DNA from: Deltaproteobacteria bacterium
Lineage (GTDB): Bacteria > Myxococcota_A > UBA9042 > CAIXZC01
Assembly: GCA_016875215.1 (NCBI GenBank)
Contig: VGRX01000010.1
Span: 1 to 38,061, forward strand
Direction of reading: 5' to 3'
DNA: 38,061 nt
Part shown: in pieces, positions 10,718 through 30,261 of the stretch
How the letters are laid out: the number at the start of each line of letters is the position of its first letter
Position numbering within the stretch: the stretch's first letter is position 1
Position numbers and translations under genes: made by a program
Notes under the pieces: generated by a model
Databases searched by the model: none
Seen by the model: only the letters and a program-made list of their open reading frames with translations
Told to the model about the DNA's origin: nothing

Positions 10718-13501
10718 GTGGACTACAAGGATACGCTGGGCTTGCCGAGGACGGCCTTCCCGATGAAGGCCAACCTCTCACAGAGGGAGCCGGCCCGAGT
10801 CGAGAAGTGGGACCGGTCGGGTACCTACCGCCGCATGGTGGAGCGGAACGGCGACCAGCCCCGCTACATCCTTCACGACGGCCCTCCGTACGCCAACGGT
10901 CACATCCACTCCGGCACGGTGCTGAACAAGATCCTCAAGGACTTCGTGGTCAAGTACAAGAACATGAGCGGGTTCCTCTGCGAGTACCAGCCGGGATGGG
11001 ATTGCCACGGGCTGCCCATCGAGAACAACGTCGAGCGGGAGGTCGGCAAGGCGAAGGATGCCTTCTCCGTGGCCGAATTCCGGAAGATGTGCCGCGAGTA
11101 CGCACTGCGGTTCGTCGACATCCAGCGGGACGAGTTCAAGCGGCTCGGCGCACTGGGCGAATGGGAGAACCCCTACCTGACGCTGCATCATTCCTACGAG
11201 GCCACGATCGCCCGCGAGTTCGGCAAGGTGGTGGGGCGGAATGCGCTGTACAAGAAGAAGAGGCCGGTGCTCTGGTGCGCTCACCATGCGACCGCGCTGG
11301 CCGAGGCCGAGGTGGAGTACGAGGAGCTCTCTTCTCCCTCCATTTGGGTCCGCTTCCGGATGAACGATGATGCCAGGGCACGGCTTCCGATGCTCCCGGC
11401 GGGCAAGCCGGCCTATGTCGTGATCTGGACGACCACGCCGTGGACGCTTCCGGCGAACCTGGCCATCACGCTGCACCCGAAGCTGGAGTACTCCGTGCTC
11501 GACTTCTCTGACGCGGCGTACTTCGTGGCCACCGAGCTCGAGCGGCAGTTTGTGGCGGACTGTGAGCTGTCCCAGCCGACCCGCCTCGGAATCGTGTGCG
11601 GAGAGGCCATGGAGAAGGCGACCTGCCGCCACCCGTTCATCGAGCGGGACTCGCTCATCATCCTGGGGGACTTCGTCAGCATCGAGACCGGCACGGGTTG
11701 CGTCCACACCGCACCGGGACACGGGTCCGACGACTACGAAGCAGGGCTCCGGTACGGTCTCGACGCTTACGCACCGGTGGACGACCGGGGCTGCTTCACC
11801 GCAGAAGTCCCGTCCTACCAGGGGCGCTTCGTGTTCGAGACCGATGCCGACATCGTCGCGATGCTGCGGGAGAAGGGGGCGCTGCTCAAGGCCCGCTCGT
11901 GCACCCACTCCTACCCCACCTGCCAGCGGTGCAAGAAGCCCATCGTCTTTCGCGCAACCAGCCAGTGGTTCATCTCGATGGACGGGACCGGCCTGCGCGA
12001 GCGTGCCTTGCAGGTGATCCCCAAGGTGGAGTGGATTCCCGCCCGCGGGCAGCAGCGCATCTCGTCCATGGTCGAGCTGCGCCCGGACTGGTGCCTTTCC
12101 CGCCAGCGGCTCTGGGGGGTCCCGATCATCGCGTTCTACTGCACCCGCTGCCGTGCGCTCAAGCTGAGCCAGGACCTCGTGGACCACGTTGCCGACATCT
12201 TCGAGCAGGAAGGCGCTGACGCCTGGTACGTGCGCGAGGCCAGGGACCTGCTTCCGGCCGGAACGAAGTGCGATGCGTGCGGCCACGACGACTTCGAGCG
12301 GGAAACCGACATCGTGGACGTCTGGTTCGAGAGCGGCGTGAGCTATGCAGCGGTCATCGAGCGCAGGTACGGGGAACGGACGCTCTGCGACCTCTACCTC
12401 GAGGGAAGCGACCAGCATCGCGGGTGGTTCCAGTCCACGCTGCTCGAATCGGTGCTGACCCGCAACCGCCCGCCGTTCGTGACCGTGCTGACGCACGGGT
12501 TCGTGGTGGACGGCGAAGGGCGCAAGATCTCCAAGACGCTGGGCAACTACGTGCCCCCCAAGGAGATCATCGACAAGCACGGGGCCGAGATCTATCGGCT
12601 CTGGGTGGCCGCGGAGAACTACCAGGAGGACGTGCGCATCTCGGACACGATCCTCAAGACGCTGGTGGACGCGTACATGAAGGTGCGCAACACGTTCCGG
12701 TTCCTGCTGGGAAGCCTGGACGGATTCGACCCGTCGACGGACGTCGTGGCCCCTCGTGACATGATGCCCATCGACCGGTACATCCTTCATCGGACTGCGA
12801 AGCTGACGGAGCGGGTCCGGAACGCGTACGATGTCTTCCGCTTCCATGACATCTACCAGCAGGTGGTGCAGTTCTGCGCGGTGGACCTGTCGGCGTTCTA
12901 CCTGGATGCGCTCAAGGACCGCCTGTACGTGCTGCCTCGCTTCTCCGGAGAGCGCCGGAGCGCACGGGCAGCGCTCCACGCCATCCTCTCGGCCCTGGTC
13001 CGGATGCTGGCCCCGATCCTCTCGTTCACCTGCGAGGAGGTCTGGGAGCACATGCCGCACGGCATCGATGCGGGAGAGAGCGTGTTCCTCGCCCGTTTCC
13101 CGAGCGACTTTCCGGGCCGGTATGCGGACGATGCGCTTGCTGCCCGGTTCGACCAGCTCGTCGAGCTCAGGGACCTGGTGAAGAAGAAGCTGGAGGAAAA
13201 GCGGGTCCAGAAGATCATCGGGCATGGCCTCGATGCCCGGGTCGTCGTGAGCATCGGCAAGGGCCACCCGTGGTACGGGGCGGTGGATGCGCACAGGGCC
13301 GCGCTGCGTGAGCTGCTCATCGTCAGCCAGGTCGAAGTAGTGGACGGGGACGGCGATGGGCTCGAGATTGCGGCCGACCACGCTACCGGACAGAAGTGCA
13401 CCCGCTGCTGGAACTGGTCCGAGACGACCGGGCAGAACGAGGAGTACACCGGGACGTGCTCCCGCTGCGCCCGGATTCTTTCGCAGTTGAAGCCGTCATG
13501 A
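10718..13501 (+). CDS. ileS: Isoleucyl-tRNA synthetase
   Basis: HIGH-type motif GPPYANGHIHSG, KMSKS-type motif GRKISKTLGNYV, C-terminal zinc motif CTRCWNW..CSRC; GTG start after GGAGGAAG. Confidence 0.98.
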   Translation: MDYKDTLGLPRTAFPMKANLSQREPARVEKWDRSGTYRRMVERNGDQPRYILHDGPPYANGHIHSGTVLNKILKDFVVKYKNMSGFLCEYQPGWDCHGLPIENNVEREVGKAKDAFSVAEFRKMCREYALRFVDIQRDEFKRLGALGEWENPYLTLHHSYEATIAREFGKVVGRNALYKKKRPVLWCAHHATALAEAEVEYEELSSPSIWVRFRMNDDARARLPMLPAGKPAYVVIWTTTPWTLPANLAITLHPKLEYSVLDFSDAAYFVATELERQFVADCELSQPTRLGIVCGEAMEKATCRHPFIERDSLIILGDFVSIETGTGCVHTAPGHGSDDYEAGLRYGLDAYAPVDDRGCFTAEVPSYQGRFVFETDADIVAMLREKGALLKARSCTHSYPTCQRCKKPIVFRATSQWFISMDGTGLRERALQVIPKVEWIPARGQQRISSMVELRPDWCLSRQRLWGVPIIAFYCTRCRALKLSQDLVDHVADIFEQEGADAWYVREARDLLPAGTKCDACGHDDFERETDIVDVWFESGVSYAAVIERRYGERTLCDLYLEGSDQHRGWFQSTLLESVLTRNRPPFVTVLTHGFVVDGEGRKISKTLGNYVPPKEIIDKHGAEIYRLWVAAENYQEDVRISDTILKTLVDAYMKVRNTFRFLLGSLDGFDPSTDVVAPRDMMPIDRYILHRTAKLTERVRNAYDVFRFHDIYQQVVQFCAVDLSAFYLDALKDRLYVLPRFSGERRSARAALHAILSALVRMLAPILSFTCEEVWEHMPHGIDAGESVFLARFPSDFPGRYADDALAARFDQLVELRDLVKKKLEEKRVQKIIGHGLDARVVVSIGKGHPWYGAVDAHRAALRELLIVSQVEVVDGDGDGLEIAADHATGQKCTRCWNWSETTGQNEEYTGTCSRCARILSQLKPS

Positions 13502-14592
13502 AGGGACTGCGGGCAAGATTCCCGAGGCTGGCGCTCTTTCTTGCCGTGGCCATGGCCGTTGCCGCGCTCGACCTGGCCACGAAGTGGTGGGCCGCATCCG
13601 TCCTGGCCACGTTCGAGCACCCGCAGCCGATCCTGGTGGGGGATTCCATGCAGGGGAAGACGATGCGGCAGCTCCTGGATGCGAGCCGCTTCCCCATGGG
13701 AGACGTCAAGGATGTGTTTCCGCTCTTTCCGGCTCTGGCGGAGGTCAAGGGCTCCGATTCGGTGCCGGTCGACCGATACCTGAGGGACTTCGGCTACTAC
13801 GTGTGGCTGGCGCCGGGGCGAAGCTCGCCGCCGATCTTCATCGACAACCCGGCCCGCCGGGCGTTCGAGCGCCAGTTCGAGGCGGGGTTGCTGGTCCGGA
13901 CCCTGGACCGCGTCCTGACCCTGGTGAAGCTCCCGAAGGTGCATGACATCCTGGTGAAGATCGGGATCTCGGACGAGTGGAGAAAGTGGCGCGACATCGT
14001 GCTGCAATGGAAGGACACGAAGCTCACCTATGCCCAGCTTCTCGAGGGGCAGCTCCCGTTCCTGGACGACGGGGAGGCGGAGGAGATGCTGAGGCAGGGG
14101 CTGGTCCACCCCATCCCCATGGAGTCGGGGAATCTGAGGCCCAACGTGCCGCGCTTCTCGGACTCGACGCCGGTCTCTGCCGGGGAAGTCTACCTGCTCG
14201 GCTACCGCGAGATCCCGCTCATCCCGTCGCTTCTGCGCTTCATCTATGCGGAGAACCCCGGGGCTGCGTGGGGGGTGCTGAGCGATGCGTCGGTCACTGT
14301 CCGGGTGATCTTTCTCCAGGTCATGACCGGCCTTGCCATGCTGCTCATCGTGTTCGTGGCGGTGCGGCTCGGGCACGAGAAGGACTACCTGACCGCGGTG
14401 GCCCTGGCCGGAATCATGGGTGGCGCCATCGGCAACTTCGTCGAGCGGATCAGCCGGTTTGCGGTGGTGGACTTCATCGACATGTACATCGGGACGTCGC
14501 ACTGGCCCACGTACAACGTGGCTGACATCGGCATCACGCTCGGGGTCGGCATCATCGCCCTCCAGGTGATCCGCAAGAAGAACCCGTTCTAG
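13498..14592 (+). CDS. lspA: Signal peptidase II (LspA) with a large extracytoplasmic insertion
   Basis: YAENPGAAWGVLSD, GGAIGNFVER, VVDFIDMYIG and TYNVADIGITLGV are LspA motifs; TM1 ALDLATKWWA. 364 aa rather than about 165. Confidence 0.9.
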   Translation: MKGLRARFPRLALFLAVAMAVAALDLATKWWAASVLATFEHPQPILVGDSMQGKTMRQLLDASRFPMGDVKDVFPLFPALAEVKGSDSVPVDRYLRDFGYYVWLAPGRSSPPIFIDNPARRAFERQFEAGLLVRTLDRVLTLVKLPKVHDILVKIGISDEWRKWRDIVLQWKDTKLTYAQLLEGQLPFLDDGEAEEMLRQGLVHPIPMESGNLRPNVPRFSDSTPVSAGEVYLLGYREIPLIPSLLRFIYAENPGAAWGVLSDASVTVRVIFLQVMTGLAMLLIVFVAVRLGHEKDYLTAVALAGIMGGAIGNFVERISRFAVVDFIDMYIGTSHWPTYNVADIGITLGVGIIALQVIRKKNPF

Positions 14593-14607: not shown

Positions 14608-15675
14608 ATGCACCCGACCTTCCACCTCGGACCGCTCGAGTTTCCGGCGTACTTCACGTTCCTGACCATCGGCTACCTTGCTGCCGTCATGCTGGCCTGG
14701 CGCGAGACGTTCAGGACGAAGGGAGTCGATCCGAACAAGATGCTCGATCTCGCCATCGTGCTGCTGATCACGGGCCTTCTCGGCTCTCGCATCCTGCACG
14801 TCATCGCGGACGGGCACTTCGACGACTACGTGAACCTCTGTCTCGATCCGTTCAAGGTCGAGGGGCGGACGCTTCCCAAAGGGGTGCCGTGCATCACGGA
14901 TGCGGAGTGCCTCAAGGGGGAGGTCGGCGAGCTGTGCAACGTGGCCACGGGGCAATGCCATCCCGGCCGCGACTGTCTGCGCACGTTGAAGATCTGGTAC
15001 GGCGGTCTGGCGTTCTACGGGGGGCTGCTGCTGTGCATCCCGGTTGGAATCGGGTACATCCTGAGGCACAAGGACAAGCTCGACCTGTGGAAGATGGCGG
15101 ATCTGGCCGGCTTCGGCATCCCGTTGGGGCTGATTCTCGGCCGCGTCGGGTGCTGGTTCGCGGGCTGCTGCTTCGGTGAGGTGGACCACTCGGGCTGCGG
15201 CGTGGTGTTTCCGAAGTTCTCTCCGGCGTGGGACCGGCACATCGAGCGGGGGCTCATCGAGAAGACCGCTGCGGCGCCGCTGCCGGTGATTCCGTCGCAG
15301 CTCATCCAGATCGGGCTCAACGCGGCCATCTTCCTGTACTGCTACTGGCTGTTCAAGAAGCGCAAGCGGTTCGATGGGCAGGTGTTCTGGATGTTCATGC
15401 TGCTGTATGCCGTCGCCCGGTTCGGTATCGAGTTCTACCGGGATGACCATCGCGGCATCTGGCTTGGGGACACGCTGTCCACGTCGCAGCTCCTCGGCAT
15501 TCCGGTGGTGATCGGTGCGGCGGTGATGCTGCGGATCCTGTCCCGCAGGCAGGCGCGCAATCCGGAGCCGCTGCTCGATGCCCCGGGGGATCCGCTGCTG
15601 GAGCAGGGCCGCTCCACGCAGCCGTCGCCGCCCGGTTCGGGGGACGACGGCGGCGATTCCGGAGGAGCCGCGTGA
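14608..15675 (+). CDS. lgt: Prolipoprotein diacylglyceryl transferase, paralog 1, with Cys-rich loop
   Basis: KIWYGGLAFYGG, GRVGCWFAGCCFGE, PSQLIQIGLNA and RFGIEFYRDD correspond to Lgt motifs; multiple TM segments. Confidence 0.9.
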   Translation: MHPTFHLGPLEFPAYFTFLTIGYLAAVMLAWRETFRTKGVDPNKMLDLAIVLLITGLLGSRILHVIADGHFDDYVNLCLDPFKVEGRTLPKGVPCITDAECLKGEVGELCNVATGQCHPGRDCLRTLKIWYGGLAFYGGLLLCIPVGIGYILRHKDKLDLWKMADLAGFGIPLGLILGRVGCWFAGCCFGEVDHSGCGVVFPKFSPAWDRHIERGLIEKTAAAPLPVIPSQLIQIGLNAAIFLYCYWLFKKRKRFDGQVFWMFMLLYAVARFGIEFYRDDHRGIWLGDTLSTSQLLGIPVVIGAAVMLRILSRRQARNPEPLLDAPGDPLLEQGRSTQPSPPGSGDDGGDSGGAA

Positions 15676-16583
15676 TCACGGGGTACGGGTTCTGGCTCGC
15701 CCTGGGAATGACAGCGGGGGCCATCGTCGCCATCCGGCTCTCCCCTCGTGCGGGCGTCACGCGGGAGGCCATGGCCGAGACCACCTTCTGGGCCTTGCTT
15801 GCGGGCTTCATCGGGGCCAGGCTGCTGCACGTGGCGGTGGAATGGCGTTTCTACCTCGATCTCTGCGTTGCCCCCGACCTGGCGCTCCCCAACGGAGTGT
15901 CGTGCCTCCTCGGTTGTGTGCCGGGGCAGGAGTGCGACGGGCACATCTGCCGCAACGTGGGCGACTGCCTGAACGCGTTCAAGTTCTGGCAGGGCGGGCT
16001 GACCTTCCTGGGCGGCGTGGTTGCCGGGATCCCGGCAGCGCTCGTCGCGGCCCGGAGGCAGAAGGCATCCCCGGAGGCGGCGTTCACCCTGCTGATGCTG
16101 GCACTGCCCCTGGGGCACATGTTCGGTCGGATCGGCTGCTGGTTCGAGGGGTGCTGCCACGGCCGGCACAGCCAGCTCTGGCTTGCTGTGGATGGCAAGG
16201 TTCCGACCCAGCTCATCGAGGCCGGCTTCAACGGGCTCGTCTTCCTCGTCCTGCTGGCCCGCTTCCTGGAACTGACCCGGAAGGGCATGCCGGCCCCTTC
16301 CCGCCTGCTGGGTGTTCCTGCGCTCTACATGATGCTGTACGGCCCGTTTCGCTTCCTGATCGAGCCGCTGCGGGGGGATCCGCAGCGGGGGTTTCTGTTC
16401 GAGCTGCCGTGGCCGTGGCTTGCCCGCACCGTCGGGTTCTCCACGCTGGAGCCGGCCTTCCTCTCGACCTCGCAGATCCTGGGAATCGTGCTCTTGATCC
16501 TGGGCTTCTTCCTGTGGCGCCTGGGTCTTACTTCTCCCCGAACACCTCGAGCTGCTCCAGGTGAAACTCGGGACGCTCGGTGA
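15672..16583 (+). CDS. Prolipoprotein diacylglyceryl transferase family protein, paralog 2, with Cys-rich loop
   Basis: KFWQGGLTFLGG, GRIGCWFEGCCHGR, PTQLIEAGFNG and RFLIEPLRGD; GTGA overlap with paralog 1. Confidence 0.85.
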   Translation: MITGYGFWLALGMTAGAIVAIRLSPRAGVTREAMAETTFWALLAGFIGARLLHVAVEWRFYLDLCVAPDLALPNGVSCLLGCVPGQECDGHICRNVGDCLNAFKFWQGGLTFLGGVVAGIPAALVAARRQKASPEAAFTLLMLALPLGHMFGRIGCWFEGCCHGRHSQLWLAVDGKVPTQLIEAGFNGLVFLVLLARFLELTRKGMPAPSRLLGVPALYMMLYGPFRFLIEPLRGDPQRGFLFELPWPWLARTVGFSTLEPAFLSTSQILGIVLLILGFFLWRLGLTSPRTPRAAPGETRDAR

Positions 16584-18030
16584 GCACGACGGCCTTCTTC
16601 TGTCGCTTCTCCATGCGCTCCAGGACCGTACCGCAGGTTTCCATCAGGAGCTGGCAGATCCGGGGGTTGGCATGGGCATGGAGGGTCTTTGCACGAGATG
16701 ATGAAAGCTCCTTGCGGAGCTTGTCCATCAGGGTGTGCACGATCATGTCGGGGCTCTTGAGATACCCCTTGCCTTCGCAGTAGAAGCAGGGTTCGGTCAG
16801 CCGCGTCATGACGCTGTCGGCCACCCGCTTCCGCGTCATTTCGACGAGACCGAGCTCGCTCATGGGGAGCACCCTCGAACGTGCGTAGTCCTTGCGCAGC
16901 TCCTCCACGAGCGTCGAGTGGACCTGGTGGCGGTTCTCCTTCTCCTTCATGTCGATGAAGTCGATGACGATGATCCCGCCGATGTTGCGGAGGCGGAGCT
17001 GGTAGGCAATCTCCACCGCGGCTTCCAGGTTGGTCTTGAGGATCGTCTCCTCCGGGTCGTTCTTCCCGGTGAACTTGCCCGAGTTGACGTCGACGGCGGT
17101 GAAGGCCTCGGCGCGGTCGATGACGATGTAGCCGCCCGACTTGAGCCAGACCTTGCGCTCCACTGCACGGGAGATCTCGTATTCGATCCCGTAGTGCTCG
17201 AACAGCGATTCCCGGCCCAGGAAGAGCTCGACCCGCGGTGCGAACGAAGGAAGGAAGCGGGCCACGAAGTTCTTGACCTGTCGATGACCGTCCTCGGAAT
17301 CGACGATGAGCTGGTCGAAGCGACGGCAGATGAGGTCGCGGGCCGTGCGCAGGAGCAGGTGCATGTCCTCGTGGAGGAGTGCCGGGGAATCGACGGCATC
17401 CGCTCCCTTGCGGACCTGCTGCCAGATCTGGTGGAGGAACTCGACCTCGGAGCGAAGCTCGTCCGCACTGCGCCCCTCGGCCACGGTTCTGAGGATGAGC
17501 CCGATTCCTGGCGGCCGGACCGCTTCACCGATGTCTCTCAGGCGCTGCCGCTCATCGGGGTCCTCGATGCGGCGGGACACTCCGACGTGGTCCACCGTCG
17601 GCATGAGGACCCCCAGCACGCCGGGCAGCGTGAACTGGCAGGTGAGGCGGGCCCCCTTGGAGCCGATGGGTTCCTTGGCCACCTGCACCACGATGTCCTG
17701 CCCCTCGCGGACCAGCGTCTCGATGCGAACGTCCGAGCGCTCCGTCCTCTCGTGGTTCTGCTCCTCCTCGTCCGCGGGGGCCTCGTCGGGATTGCGGCGG
17801 CCGACGACATCGGTGGCATAGAGGAATCCGGTGCGCTCGAGACCGGCGTCCACGAATGCGGCATTCATCCCGGGCAGGACCCGCATCACGCGGCCCTTGT
17901 AGATGTTGCCGACGATCCGTCGCTCCCGCACGGTCTCGATGTGGATCTCCGACAGGCCCCCCGCCTCGACGACTGCGACGCGGGTCAGCTCATCGGTATG
18001 ATTGACCAGGATGCGATTCTCCACCCGCAC
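16528..18030 (-). CDS. rng: Ribonuclease G/E family protein
   Basis: MRVENRILVNHTDELTRVAVVEAG..GNIYKGRVMRVLPGMNAAFVDAGLERTGFL (S1-like), DVNSGKF, IGGIIVIDFIDM, CYCEGKG-type motif PCFYCEGKGYL. Confidence 0.95.
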   Translation of the reverse strand: MRVENRILVNHTDELTRVAVVEAGGLSEIHIETVRERRIVGNIYKGRVMRVLPGMNAAFVDAGLERTGFLYATDVVGRRNPDEAPADEEEQNHERTERSDVRIETLVREGQDIVVQVAKEPIGSKGARLTCQFTLPGVLGVLMPTVDHVGVSRRIEDPDERQRLRDIGEAVRPPGIGLILRTVAEGRSADELRSEVEFLHQIWQQVRKGADAVDSPALLHEDMHLLLRTARDLICRRFDQLIVDSEDGHRQVKNFVARFLPSFAPRVELFLGRESLFEHYGIEYEISRAVERKVWLKSGGYIVIDRAEAFTAVDVNSGKFTGKNDPEETILKTNLEAAVEIAYQLRLRNIGGIIVIDFIDMKEKENRHQVHSTLVEELRKDYARSRVLPMSELGLVEMTRKRVADSVMTRLTEPCFYCEGKGYLKSPDMIVHTLMDKLRKELSSSRAKTLHAHANPRICQLLMETCGTVLERMEKRQKKAVVLTERPEFHLEQLEVFGEK

Positions 18031-23487: not shown

Positions 23488-25212
23488 ATGTACCGGGCTG
23501 GATTGGGGCGGTTCCTGGCCGTGACGCTGTGGCTGTGCGCTGCCTGCTCGAACGGCGGGGGAGGGACGAACAGTGCTCCGACGAGGCCCGACCCTGACGG
23601 AAGAGGGAACGACTCCGGCGTGATCGAAGTGCTCGGCGAGGGAATGCCGGTCTGTCAGCCGGGACAAGCGCAATGCTCCTCGGACGGGACCGCGGTGGAA
23701 ACCTGTCTCGAAGACGGCAGCGGATTCGGCAACCCGGTTGCGTGCCAGGATGCCAACCCCTGCTCCGACGAACGGTGCGAAGACGGAGCCTGCATCTTCC
23801 CCCTGACGAAATGCAACGACAACGACCCGTGCACGCAGGACATCTGCATGCCGTTCACCGGGGAGTGCCTCCACGCTCCGGCAGCGGGCCGGGCCCAGTG
23901 CTGCCAGAAGGACGAGGACTGCGACGACGGCTTCGACGAAACGACCGACCTGTGCGACGTCGCCAACGGGGCCTGTGTCTTCCAGGCCGAAGTGCCCGGC
24001 ATCGAGTTCCTGTACAAACTGGGGGGCAAGGGAACCGGTGACGGGCAGCTATCGAGCCCGAAGGGACTCGCCGTGCTGGCGGACGGACGCCTGGTGGTTG
24101 CTGACTCGGGCAACAACCGGGTGCTGCTGCTGTCACCCGCAGGGGACCAGCTCGCGGCGGTCACCGAGGCCTTTGGAAAGCCTGTGAAGGCCCCCGGATG
24201 CGCCTATGCCGCGGCGGATGGACGCATCTTCGTGTGCGATACCGGGAACGACCGGGTGCTGCTGCTGGACGACACGGGGTCTGCAACCGATGTCTGGCCC
24301 CCGGCCGACTACACGGGCGAGCTCTTCCTGAGCCCGACCGACGTCACGACGGATGCCGAGGGATTCGCCTACGTCGCGGACGGACCTGGCGAGGAGTTCG
24401 ACACCGGGAACCGGATCATGAAGCTCAAGCCCACCGGGCAGGTCGTGGGCATGCAAGGCAAGACGGGGGATGCGGAAGGCAACTTCGGGGGCCCCTCGGG
24501 CCTCGCACTTCACCCGGCGGGCACGCTCTTCATCACGGACCAGGGGAACGACCGCGTGCAGGTGCTCGACGCAGCGCTGGCCTACGTGTCCCAGTTCGGG
24601 ACCGAGGGGAGCGAGCCGGGCCAGCTCAAGGGGCCGTCCGACATCGCCATGGCCGCCAGCGGTGTGTTCTTCATCGCGGATGCCGGCAACCAGCGCGTGC
24701 AGCTCTTCGCCAGTTGCCAGCCCGATTGCACCGGCAAGGTGTGCGGCGACGACGGGTGCGGGGGGTCGTGCGGCAACTGCCCCTCGTTCGGCACATGCAA
24801 CGGGCAGGGGCTGTGTGACGGCTGGGTCGGAGAGGCCGGGGAAGGATGCAACGTGCAGGAGGGGGCCGGCTGCGGCGGCTGCCCCGCCGAGAACTGCGTC
24901 TGCACCGGAGAAGGGGCGCTCGATCCCTCTCTGTTCTACGAAGGGGCGGACAAGGACGAGTATTGCTGCTCCACGCAATGGGACGACGTGTGCATCTTCG
25001 AGGCCCAGCTCGTCTGCGGCTACTCGTGCCCCCTGCCGACCGAGTGGCCGGCGCTCGAGCCCACCTTCTCCGCCATCGCCGAATTCAATACTGCGGGCGA
25101 AACCAAGCTGGCTTCCCCCCTCAAGGTCGCGCTGGATGCCAACGGCCTCCTCTACGTGCTGGATGCAGTGAAGAGCGAGATCTATGTGCTGAGGACGGTG
25201 GGGACGGACTGA
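23488..25212 (+). CDS. Cys-rich lipoprotein with NHL-type beta-propeller repeats
   Basis: Lipobox LCAACS; NHL-like repeats (GDGQLSSPKGLAVLADGRLVVADSGNNRVLLL, PSGLALHPAGTLFITDQGNDRVQVLD, PSDIAMAASGVFFIADAGNQRVQLF); CGDDGCGGSCGNC module. Confidence 0.88.
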   Translation: MYRAGLGRFLAVTLWLCAACSNGGGGTNSAPTRPDPDGRGNDSGVIEVLGEGMPVCQPGQAQCSSDGTAVETCLEDGSGFGNPVACQDANPCSDERCEDGACIFPLTKCNDNDPCTQDICMPFTGECLHAPAAGRAQCCQKDEDCDDGFDETTDLCDVANGACVFQAEVPGIEFLYKLGGKGTGDGQLSSPKGLAVLADGRLVVADSGNNRVLLLSPAGDQLAAVTEAFGKPVKAPGCAYAAADGRIFVCDTGNDRVLLLDDTGSATDVWPPADYTGELFLSPTDVTTDAEGFAYVADGPGEEFDTGNRIMKLKPTGQVVGMQGKTGDAEGNFGGPSGLALHPAGTLFITDQGNDRVQVLDAALAYVSQFGTEGSEPGQLKGPSDIAMAASGVFFIADAGNQRVQLFASCQPDCTGKVCGDDGCGGSCGNCPSFGTCNGQGLCDGWVGEAGEGCNVQEGAGCGGCPAENCVCTGEGALDPSLFYEGADKDEYCCSTQWDDVCIFEAQLVCGYSCPLPTEWPALEPTFSAIAEFNTAGETKLASPLKVALDANGLLYVLDAVKSEIYVLRTVGTD

Positions 25213-28608: not shown

Positions 28609-30204
28609 TCAACTGCCGGGAAGCAGGTTGTCGAGGCAGAGCTGCAAGCCGGTGCAGCAGACGCACAGGAAGCAATTGGGGCAGTTGCAGTTCGGCTTGG
28701 GCACGCACCCGTTGGACCCGCAGGTCCCTGCCAGCTTGCAGATGCCCAGATCGAACACATCGTAGGTGCACGGTGTTCCGTTGAGCACGTCGTGCACGCA
28801 CCCCTGTTCCTTGGTGCAGCTGTCCTTGGTGCACTCCTCCTTGTCGTCGCAGTTCTTGGGGGCTCCGGAGACGCACATGCCGCTGTTGCACATGTCGGGC
28901 TCGGTGCACGGATTGCCGTCGTCGCACGGGAGTGCGGAGGCCAGCTTGTGCTGGCAGGTGCCGTTCTCGCAGACGTCGATGGTGCAGGGGTTGCCGTCGT
29001 CGTCGCACTTGTTGGAGTTGTTGACGAACTTGCACCCCTTCTCGCTGACCGGGTCGCAGAGGTTGTCGGTGCACGGGTTGTTGTCCTCGCAGACCTTGGG
29101 CCCGCCCTCGCACTTGCCTTCGTAGCAGTGGTCGTTGTCGGTGCAGGAGTTGCCGTCGTCGCACAGCTTCGCATTGTTGGGGTGCGAGCAGCCCTCAATC
29201 GGGTCGCACAGGTCGTCCGTGCAGGGATTGCCGTCCTCGCAGAGGCCCTCGTCCTTGGTTCCGTCGCAGTTGTTGTCCTTCTTGTCGCACAGTTCGGTCG
29301 CGCCGGGATAGACGGTCCCGTCGGTGTCGTCGCAGTCGCCGCCGCCGCTGCCGCAGATCACCGGCTTTCCAGGTGTGGTCATGGTGGCGTCGCAGAATCC
29401 GTCGCCGTCGTCATTGCACCCTTCATCGACGGCCAGGTCGCAGTCGTTGTCCACGTCGTCGCACTTTTCGGCGGACGGGATCAGCGCGCTGCATTCGGAC
29501 AGGCCCGAGGCCTCGCACATGCGCTCACCGGTGCACTTGCCCGACTCGTTGGCGTTGAAGCAATCGGTGGACTTCTGCGCCTGGACTGCCGGGAAGGAGC
29601 AGGTGCACTCGCCCGCGGTCGGCATGCACTGCTGGAACGTGCCTCCCGGGGTGGTCACGGTTTCGCACTGGTAGCCGGCGGGGCACGCGGCGGCATCCGT
29701 GGAGCAGTCGGCCCCGCAGAAGCTGCCGAGCCCGTTGGGAAACTCCAGACAGAGGTCGAGTGACGTGGTCGTCACCCCCTGCGTCTTGCAGTCGTCGTTG
29801 ATCCGGCAGGGGTCGCAGAGCGTCAGGAACTTCGGCATGCAGACATAGATGATGTCGGGCTTGGTGTCCGCCTCGACGCAGGCCCAGCCCTTGGGGCAGT
29901 CCTCGACGCACTGGGTGGTGCAGCGTCCTCCGTCCTTGGTGGTGACGCAGAAGCCGCTGTCGCACTCGGAGTTGTCGGTGCAGGGCCAGAGGAACTCGCC
30001 GGGTTGCGGAATGTACTCCACCTCCGCGGTGACGAAGTCGAGAAGCTCGAACCTGTCCTCGACGAGGGGAATGTCCGCTACGCCGTCGCTGCCCGACGAG
30101 TCGACGGCATCCTCGTACTTGACCGTCGTACCATTGGAGCAGCCGAGCGCTGCCAGACAAACCACGGCAAAGGTCACTGTCCATCGTTGCGGCCGGGAAA
30201 ACAT
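28609..30204 (-). CDS. Cys-rich lipoprotein with MopE-type motifs and CxDGNPCTxxxC repeats
   Basis: Lipobox LAALGCS; EKCDDVDNDCDLAVDEGC and DCDDTDGTVYPGATELCDKKDNNCDGTKDEG; repeated CDDGNPCT-type modules. Confidence 0.9.
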   Translation of the reverse strand: MFSRPQRWTVTFAVVCLAALGCSNGTTVKYEDAVDSSGSDGVADIPLVEDRFELLDFVTAEVEYIPQPGEFLWPCTDNSECDSGFCVTTKDGGRCTTQCVEDCPKGWACVEADTKPDIIYVCMPKFLTLCDPCRINDDCKTQGVTTTSLDLCLEFPNGLGSFCGADCSTDAAACPAGYQCETVTTPGGTFQQCMPTAGECTCSFPAVQAQKSTDCFNANESGKCTGERMCEASGLSECSALIPSAEKCDDVDNDCDLAVDEGCNDDGDGFCDATMTTPGKPVICGSGGGDCDDTDGTVYPGATELCDKKDNNCDGTKDEGLCEDGNPCTDDLCDPIEGCSHPNNAKLCDDGNSCTDNDHCYEGKCEGGPKVCEDNNPCTDNLCDPVSEKGCKFVNNSNKCDDDGNPCTIDVCENGTCQHKLASALPCDDGNPCTEPDMCNSGMCVSGAPKNCDDKEECTKDSCTKEQGCVHDVLNGTPCTYDVFDLGICKLAGTCGSNGCVPKPNCNCPNCFLCVCCTGLQLCLDNLLPGS

Positions 30205-30232
30205 GCGTCCCCCCCCATGAGAGTCAGAGGCT

Positions 30233-30261
30233 ACTATACCCTGGGGGCCCGCGCGATTCAA
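30233..30261 (-). promoter_or_regulatory. Putative promoter for the MopE-like lipoprotein: TTGAAT-N17-TATAGT
   Basis: Reverse complement of 30256-30261 (ATTCAA) and 30233-30238 (ACTATA). Confidence 0.6.

Follow-up and report, generated by a model that had tools for sequence, protein, structure and literature searches.

The lspA gene and its enlarged product

The window analysed here is the whole of a 38,061-nt stretch of DNA from a Deltaproteobacteria bacterium (contig VGRX01000010.1 of assembly GCA_016875215.1), and its subject is the lspA gene, which encodes the lipoprotein signal peptidase LspA. Most Gram-negative bacteria depend on LspA for viability, and the enzyme is an antibiotic target; normally it is minimal in size, at about 160–170 residues. 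The open reading frame at 13498–14592 (+), which starts with ATG, encodes an LspA of 364 aa. Its residues 237–358 matched the Pfam family PF01252 (E 7.1e-30; 104.5 bits against a cut-off of 25), and the NCBIfam model TIGR00077 gave 82.8 bits, above its cut-off of 73.95. The PF01252 alignment began only at model position 24, because the first transmembrane helix (TM1) is detached from the remainder of the protein by an insert. Between the D..TK motif of TM1 and the point where the core match begins we counted 202 residues, compared with 11–16 in ordinary LspA and 136–220 in nearly all members of the Myxococcota class to which the window belongs. An earlier note, made from the sequence alone, had described an LspA over twice the normal size with about 200 extra residues after TM1; this description held, the insert occupying residues 37–236.

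The features of the protein were placed by alignment of 43 sequences from 42 genomes of the class and by an AlphaFold2 (AF2) model. TM1 (about residues 8–36; 13519–13605, +) was modelled as a helix over residues 2–35, and its D25 and K29 were invariant in the 43 sequences. The insert (13606–14205, +) adds about 190 residues between TM1 and the first strand of the beta-cradle, to which it is joined directly. It contains unit A (about residues 42–118; 13621–13851, +), by hhalign a diverged copy related to the single units of Bradymonadia-type LspA described below; a helical linker (residues 119–171; 13852–14010, +), with AF2 helices at 118–142, 148–154 and 157–172 and a predicted local distance difference test score (pLDDT) of about 70; and unit B (residues 172–236; 14011–14205, +), an S4-like unit by hhalign, in which two helices (178–185, 193–199), a strand (203–206), a long loop and a second strand (231–234) follow one another. 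The linker was far longer than in relatives, in which the class median over the same columns was 9 residues. The LspA core (14206–14574, +) comprises the beta-cradle strands, the extracellular loop and TM2–TM4. The N-terminus before TM1 carried a net charge of +4 and lies on the cytoplasmic side; given this charge distribution and the established LspA topology, the insert is extracytoplasmic, in agreement with the earlier note.

The conserved motifs of the core started at residues 250 (YAENPG), 312 (GNFVER), 323 (VVDF) and 340 (NVAD). The catalytic aspartates D325 (VVDF; 14470–14472, +) and D343 (NVAD; 14524–14526, +), which had been reported as retained, were both present and were invariant in the 43 sequences; they correspond to Asp118 and Asp136 of Staphylococcus aureus LspA (PMC6952399). 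A published list names 14 highly conserved LspA residues (PMC6952399), and twelve of them were identical in the window protein, the exceptions being Asp109, replaced by E316, and Phe132, replaced by Y339; a tyrosine at the latter position was also found in most class members. The change of GNxxDR to GNFVER had been pointed out before, and it is real (E316; 14443–14445, +). It is a private change shared with two relatives only: the position was D in 39 of the 43 sequences, E in three, including the window LspA, and N in one. Since nearly all insert-bearing relatives keep the aspartate, the change is not linked to the insert. YAENPG does begin at residue 250, as had been stated, but its tyrosine is not the equivalent of Pseudomonas aeruginosa Tyr53, which aligned two residues further on, with E252; Asn54 aligned with N253.

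We detected no second PF01252 match in the window's genome (94% complete, 857 contigs), and because no additional LspA of ordinary size accompanies it, the long form should be the housekeeping enzyme. The AF2 model of the full protein (pLDDT 85.9; predicted template modelling score 0.83) contained the four-TM fold with a beta-cradle, and Foldseek matched it to the LspA crystal structures 5dir and 6ryo/6ryp (E 1e-9 to 1e-8, TMt 0.64–0.74). As judged by its sequence and predicted fold, the window LspA is very likely a working housekeeping signal peptidase, and it is predicted to be active.

Distribution of the insert and the neighbouring genes

We searched 52 genomes of the window's class and found relatives in 48 of them, nearly all in the long form. 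In the 43 aligned sequences the insert lay at the same site and measured 128–215 aa (median 152; 197 in the window LspA). From one class genome (G007), only a normal-size LspA was obtained. Several class genomes carried a second LspA of ordinary size (L151–L158, L060) on very long tree branches; these may be specialised paralogues.

An assembly fusion or frameshift, which the earlier note had named as the finding that would overturn its reading, could be suspected from the fragmented assembly of 857 contigs. The same architecture occurred in all 42 genomes without stops and formed a clade on the tree, and a single-unit form was present on a finished isolate chromosome of the Bradymonadia. Conservation of the insert across independent assemblies refutes the artefact, to which we give practically no credence. 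Open frames of 1000–1400 aa in five relatives raised an IleS–LspA fusion as a candidate, which was rejected: ileS and lspA occupy separate frames, and the long frames run out of frame over ileS.

The wide length range of the insert and its low sequence conservation within the class would suit a constructive neutral or structural expansion, in which the role of the units would be confined to stabilising the enzyme or the loop fold, with no interaction partner. Against this stand the retention of the insert in nearly all sampled class genomes, the invariance of H41 near its start in the 43 sequences, and an arginine within it common to 39 of the 43, though absent from the window LspA. We consider such an expansion unlikely.

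Outside the class, the scan covered about 50 further families in the phylum, each represented by one or two genomes. The PF01252 match started at model positions 1–5 in nearly all of their LspA proteins and at 24–26 only in families f19, f28, f41, f42 and f48. The LspA of f19, f41, f42 and f48 contained one unit of about 70 aa at the same insertion site. Family f19 is a Bradymonadales family that includes Bradymonas sediminis FA350 (L097) and a Persicimonas caeni-like member (L098). The length of LspA across the Myxococcota, which the earlier note had raised, can be described accordingly: the long form is class-wide, a single unit occurs in these four families, and most other classes have an ordinary LspA. 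Two further observations concern these families. In the LspA of f28 (L134, L189), the insert at this site is longer and of a different build, and it matched the S4-like profile only in part; and one Bradymonadales-family genome has two adjacent LspA genes (L092 and L190; G125:C2, about 339716–340668), both with an S4-like unit.

A tree of the LspA core alone placed the window's class in one clade (99/82) and the single-unit families in a second (88/82). A joint clade of the double-unit class and the single-unit families was not rejected (p-AU 0.085), so the insert was gained once or twice. In a plasmid collection, no full-length relative was found, and matches spanned at most about half of the protein.

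Directly upstream of lspA lies ileS (10718–13501, +), whose stop codon overlaps the lspA start in an ATGA; lspA is translationally coupled to ileS. Downstream lie lgt, encoding prolipoprotein diacylglyceryl transferase (first copy; 14608–15675, +; PF01790 E 1.7e-47, TIGR00544 above its cut-off), and, in tandem, a second Lgt-like gene (15672–16583, +; PF01790 E 3e-39, TIGR00544 86.6 bits, below the cut-off of 118.9). In most class loci that reached far enough, ileS was found upstream and/or lgt downstream. The tandem Lgt pair straight after lspA (14608–16583, +) was also present in at least one near relative (L002). Both Lgt proteins have an insertion with six cysteines (CLDPF...CLRTL in the first copy; 14839–14976 and the matching part of 15672–16583), possibly a small disulfide-bonded domain, and a second lipoprotein enzyme at the locus thus also looks enlarged. 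By Pfam, an RNase E/G family gene (16528–18030, −) converges on the lipoprotein genes, and genes at 28609–30261 (−) and 23488–25209 (+) encode predicted proteins with a MopE-type metal-binding motif, Dicty_CTDC repeats and NHL repeats.

Relationship of the inserted units to S4 domains

The S4 domain is otherwise known as a cytoplasmic RNA-binding module. Searches with the insert against Pfam, NCBIfam, PHROGs and PDB sequences returned no match. When we built a profile from 15 inserts and searched the phylum with it, S4 domains of RluD-like proteins were matched as well. As an unbiased test of this match, 23 S4 domains were gathered by PF01479 from genomes of the class, independently of the insert, and compared with the units by hhalign. 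Unit B, in a set that included the window protein, scored 85–89% over 47–48 columns, and the single units scored 90–92% over 47–50 columns; both alignments spanned almost all of the S4 domain. Of 41 control windows from other families, only those with S4 or LspA sequence scored; the others stayed at or below about 5% with S4 and about 3% with unit B, and reversed profiles remained below 1%. Similarity to S4 above the controls was found for unit B and the single units, but not for unit A. A combined unit profile (A5), searched over 361 genomes of the phylum, recovered the inserts and also, from many genomes, S4 domains of RluD (match to positions 1–57; best E 5.8e-11). Among the non-LspA matches that we fetched, 18 of 18 had the RluD active-site pattern, and all ten that were scanned proved to be PF00849 pseudouridine synthases. 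A rluD gene adjoins lspA in two Bacillus-type loci; in the Myxococcota loci examined, no rluD, a candidate source of the insert, was found beside lspA.

The AF2 model of one single unit, from family f42 (mean pLDDT 77.6, and 84–90 over residues 11–70), had a strand-helix-helix-strand order. Its top PDB match in Foldseek was Escherichia coli RluD (2ist; E 4.7e-3, probability 1.00, 2.2 Å over 62 columns), followed by other S4-bearing ribosome factors and then by RCK_C (E 0.18). By profile comparison, unit B and the single units are S4-like.

Several results weigh against this assignment. None of the units gave a Pfam S4 match, and because the PF01479 gathering score was not reached, we call the units S4-like and do not file them as S4 members; at E 0.01, the Pfam S4 match was also missing in seven of the ten RluD proteins scanned in the phylum. 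Foldseek of the window protein's own full model returned no S4 match at E ≤ 10, and the structural evidence for S4 derives from a single-unit relative, not from the window protein. The long linker and the low-confidence long loop of unit B (residues 210–218 in the AF2 model) may be the reason why the full model missed S4 domains. One of the RluD comparison sets had been selected by the unit profile itself, and unit A had no direct similarity to S4 (hhalign 0.25–15%). Finally, the single units also scored about 37–38% against TrkA_C (RCK_C, PF02080), the domain that followed S4 in the structural search.

A TrkA_C origin of the units, which would then bind a small ligand, is suggested by this score, by a similar motif pattern (GKTL...GD.L.V), by a partial resemblance in fold and by a Pfam TrkA_C match in one class member (E 0.024). 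The scores were weaker than those for S4, however, at 90–92% for the single units, and unit B reached only 7% against TrkA_C. TrkA_C is without the second helix before the strand, whereas the predicted fold of the units has two helices there, as in S4. The genome-wide profile matches that we fetched were RluD, not TrkA_C, and Pfam found no TrkA_C match in the window protein. This origin is therefore improbable in our estimate.

The charge of the units differed markedly from that of cytosolic S4 domains. The median net charge was −10 for the single units, −3 for unit B and −2 for unit A, compared with +3 for cytosolic S4 domains and +7 for those of the RluD type, and the LspA units showed no basic RNA-binding surface. 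The family resemblance to RNA-binding S4 domains is what would suggest that the units still bind RNA. Since the basic charge is lost and the units lie on the periplasmic side, we regard RNA binding as very improbable.

The two units of the window protein appear to be related to each other. Unit A scored about 95% against the single-unit set and 67.5% against unit B, and unit B scored 98.7% against the single-unit LspA of the Bradymonadia type. These profile scores make unit A a homologue of the single unit, and this likeness suggests a tandem duplication of one S4-like unit, with the first copy diverging faster, as the simplest reading.

Possible role of the insert and comparison with known systems

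The residues that follow the cleavage site on its C-terminal side have been proposed to lie in the beta-cradle (PMC6952399). Because the insert is rooted in the first strand of the cradle, it would be well placed to touch the mature part of the substrate or a partner; the earlier note had suggested that it gates substrates or binds a partner. We slightly favour an explanation in which two tandem units, derived from one RluD-type S4-like domain, have enlarged the loop that leads from TM1 to the first cradle strand of a housekeeping LspA, and in which the former RNA-binding domain now acts as a platform for protein contacts at the cradle entrance. Such a platform might hold an incoming diacylglyceryl-prolipoprotein steady by its mature part. 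Alternatively, it might dock a partner from the same pathway, such as LolCDE, the Sec exit site or Lgt, whose gene adjoins lspA.

The attachment to the cradle would also suit a substrate lid, in which the units cover the cradle and restrict or order the entry of prolipoproteins. A lid might in addition impede inhibitors of LspA; one of these, myxovirescin, is a product of Myxococcus xanthus (PMC6952399), which belongs to the same phylum. Most other Myxococcota have an ordinary LspA, indicating that the phylum in general does not need the insert, and we regard a lid as possible but somewhat doubtful. Sequence data do not separate a lid, a docking platform and plain stabilisation.

For the contact platform, the full proposal is that an S4 domain was relocated to the periplasmic side of an essential membrane protease, lost its RNA-binding charge, was duplicated in one class and became a binding platform for lipoproteins or partners; we see the case for it as evenly balanced. 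If true, it would be an example of the S4 fold working outside the cytoplasm and within an essential protease, which would surprise specialists. A literature search for an S4 fold outside the cytoplasm found no case, a weak sign that this one is new. An accessory domain kept throughout a lineage next to the active site shows that the LspA core tolerates additions there, perhaps for regulation or partner docking, and LspA with two units, one unit and none offers a natural comparison within one phylum.

The window protein is thus a known enzyme in a new architecture, and the identification of its inserted domain is plausible and was tested against controls. Like canonical LspA (PF01252, TIGR00077; 5dir, 6ryo, 6ryp), the window protein has four TM helices, the beta-cradle, the Asp dyad and 12 of the 14 conserved residues, and its gene adjoins ileS and lgt; it differs in the roughly 190 residues inserted ahead of the first cradle strand and in the D-to-E change in GNxxDR. 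The single-unit LspA of the Bradymonadia (L097, L098) shares the insertion site and a homologous unit, but has one unit, strongly acidic, where the window LspA has two. The RluD-type S4 domain (2ist; the region before PF00849) is aligned over its full length by the single units and by unit B; its preceding strand and its AG.(R/T)L motif recur in the single units, and the f42 model superposes on it as given above. Unlike that domain, the LspA units have neither the RLD and SR motifs nor the basic surface, lie outside the cytoplasm within a membrane protease, and are apparently duplicated in the window's class.

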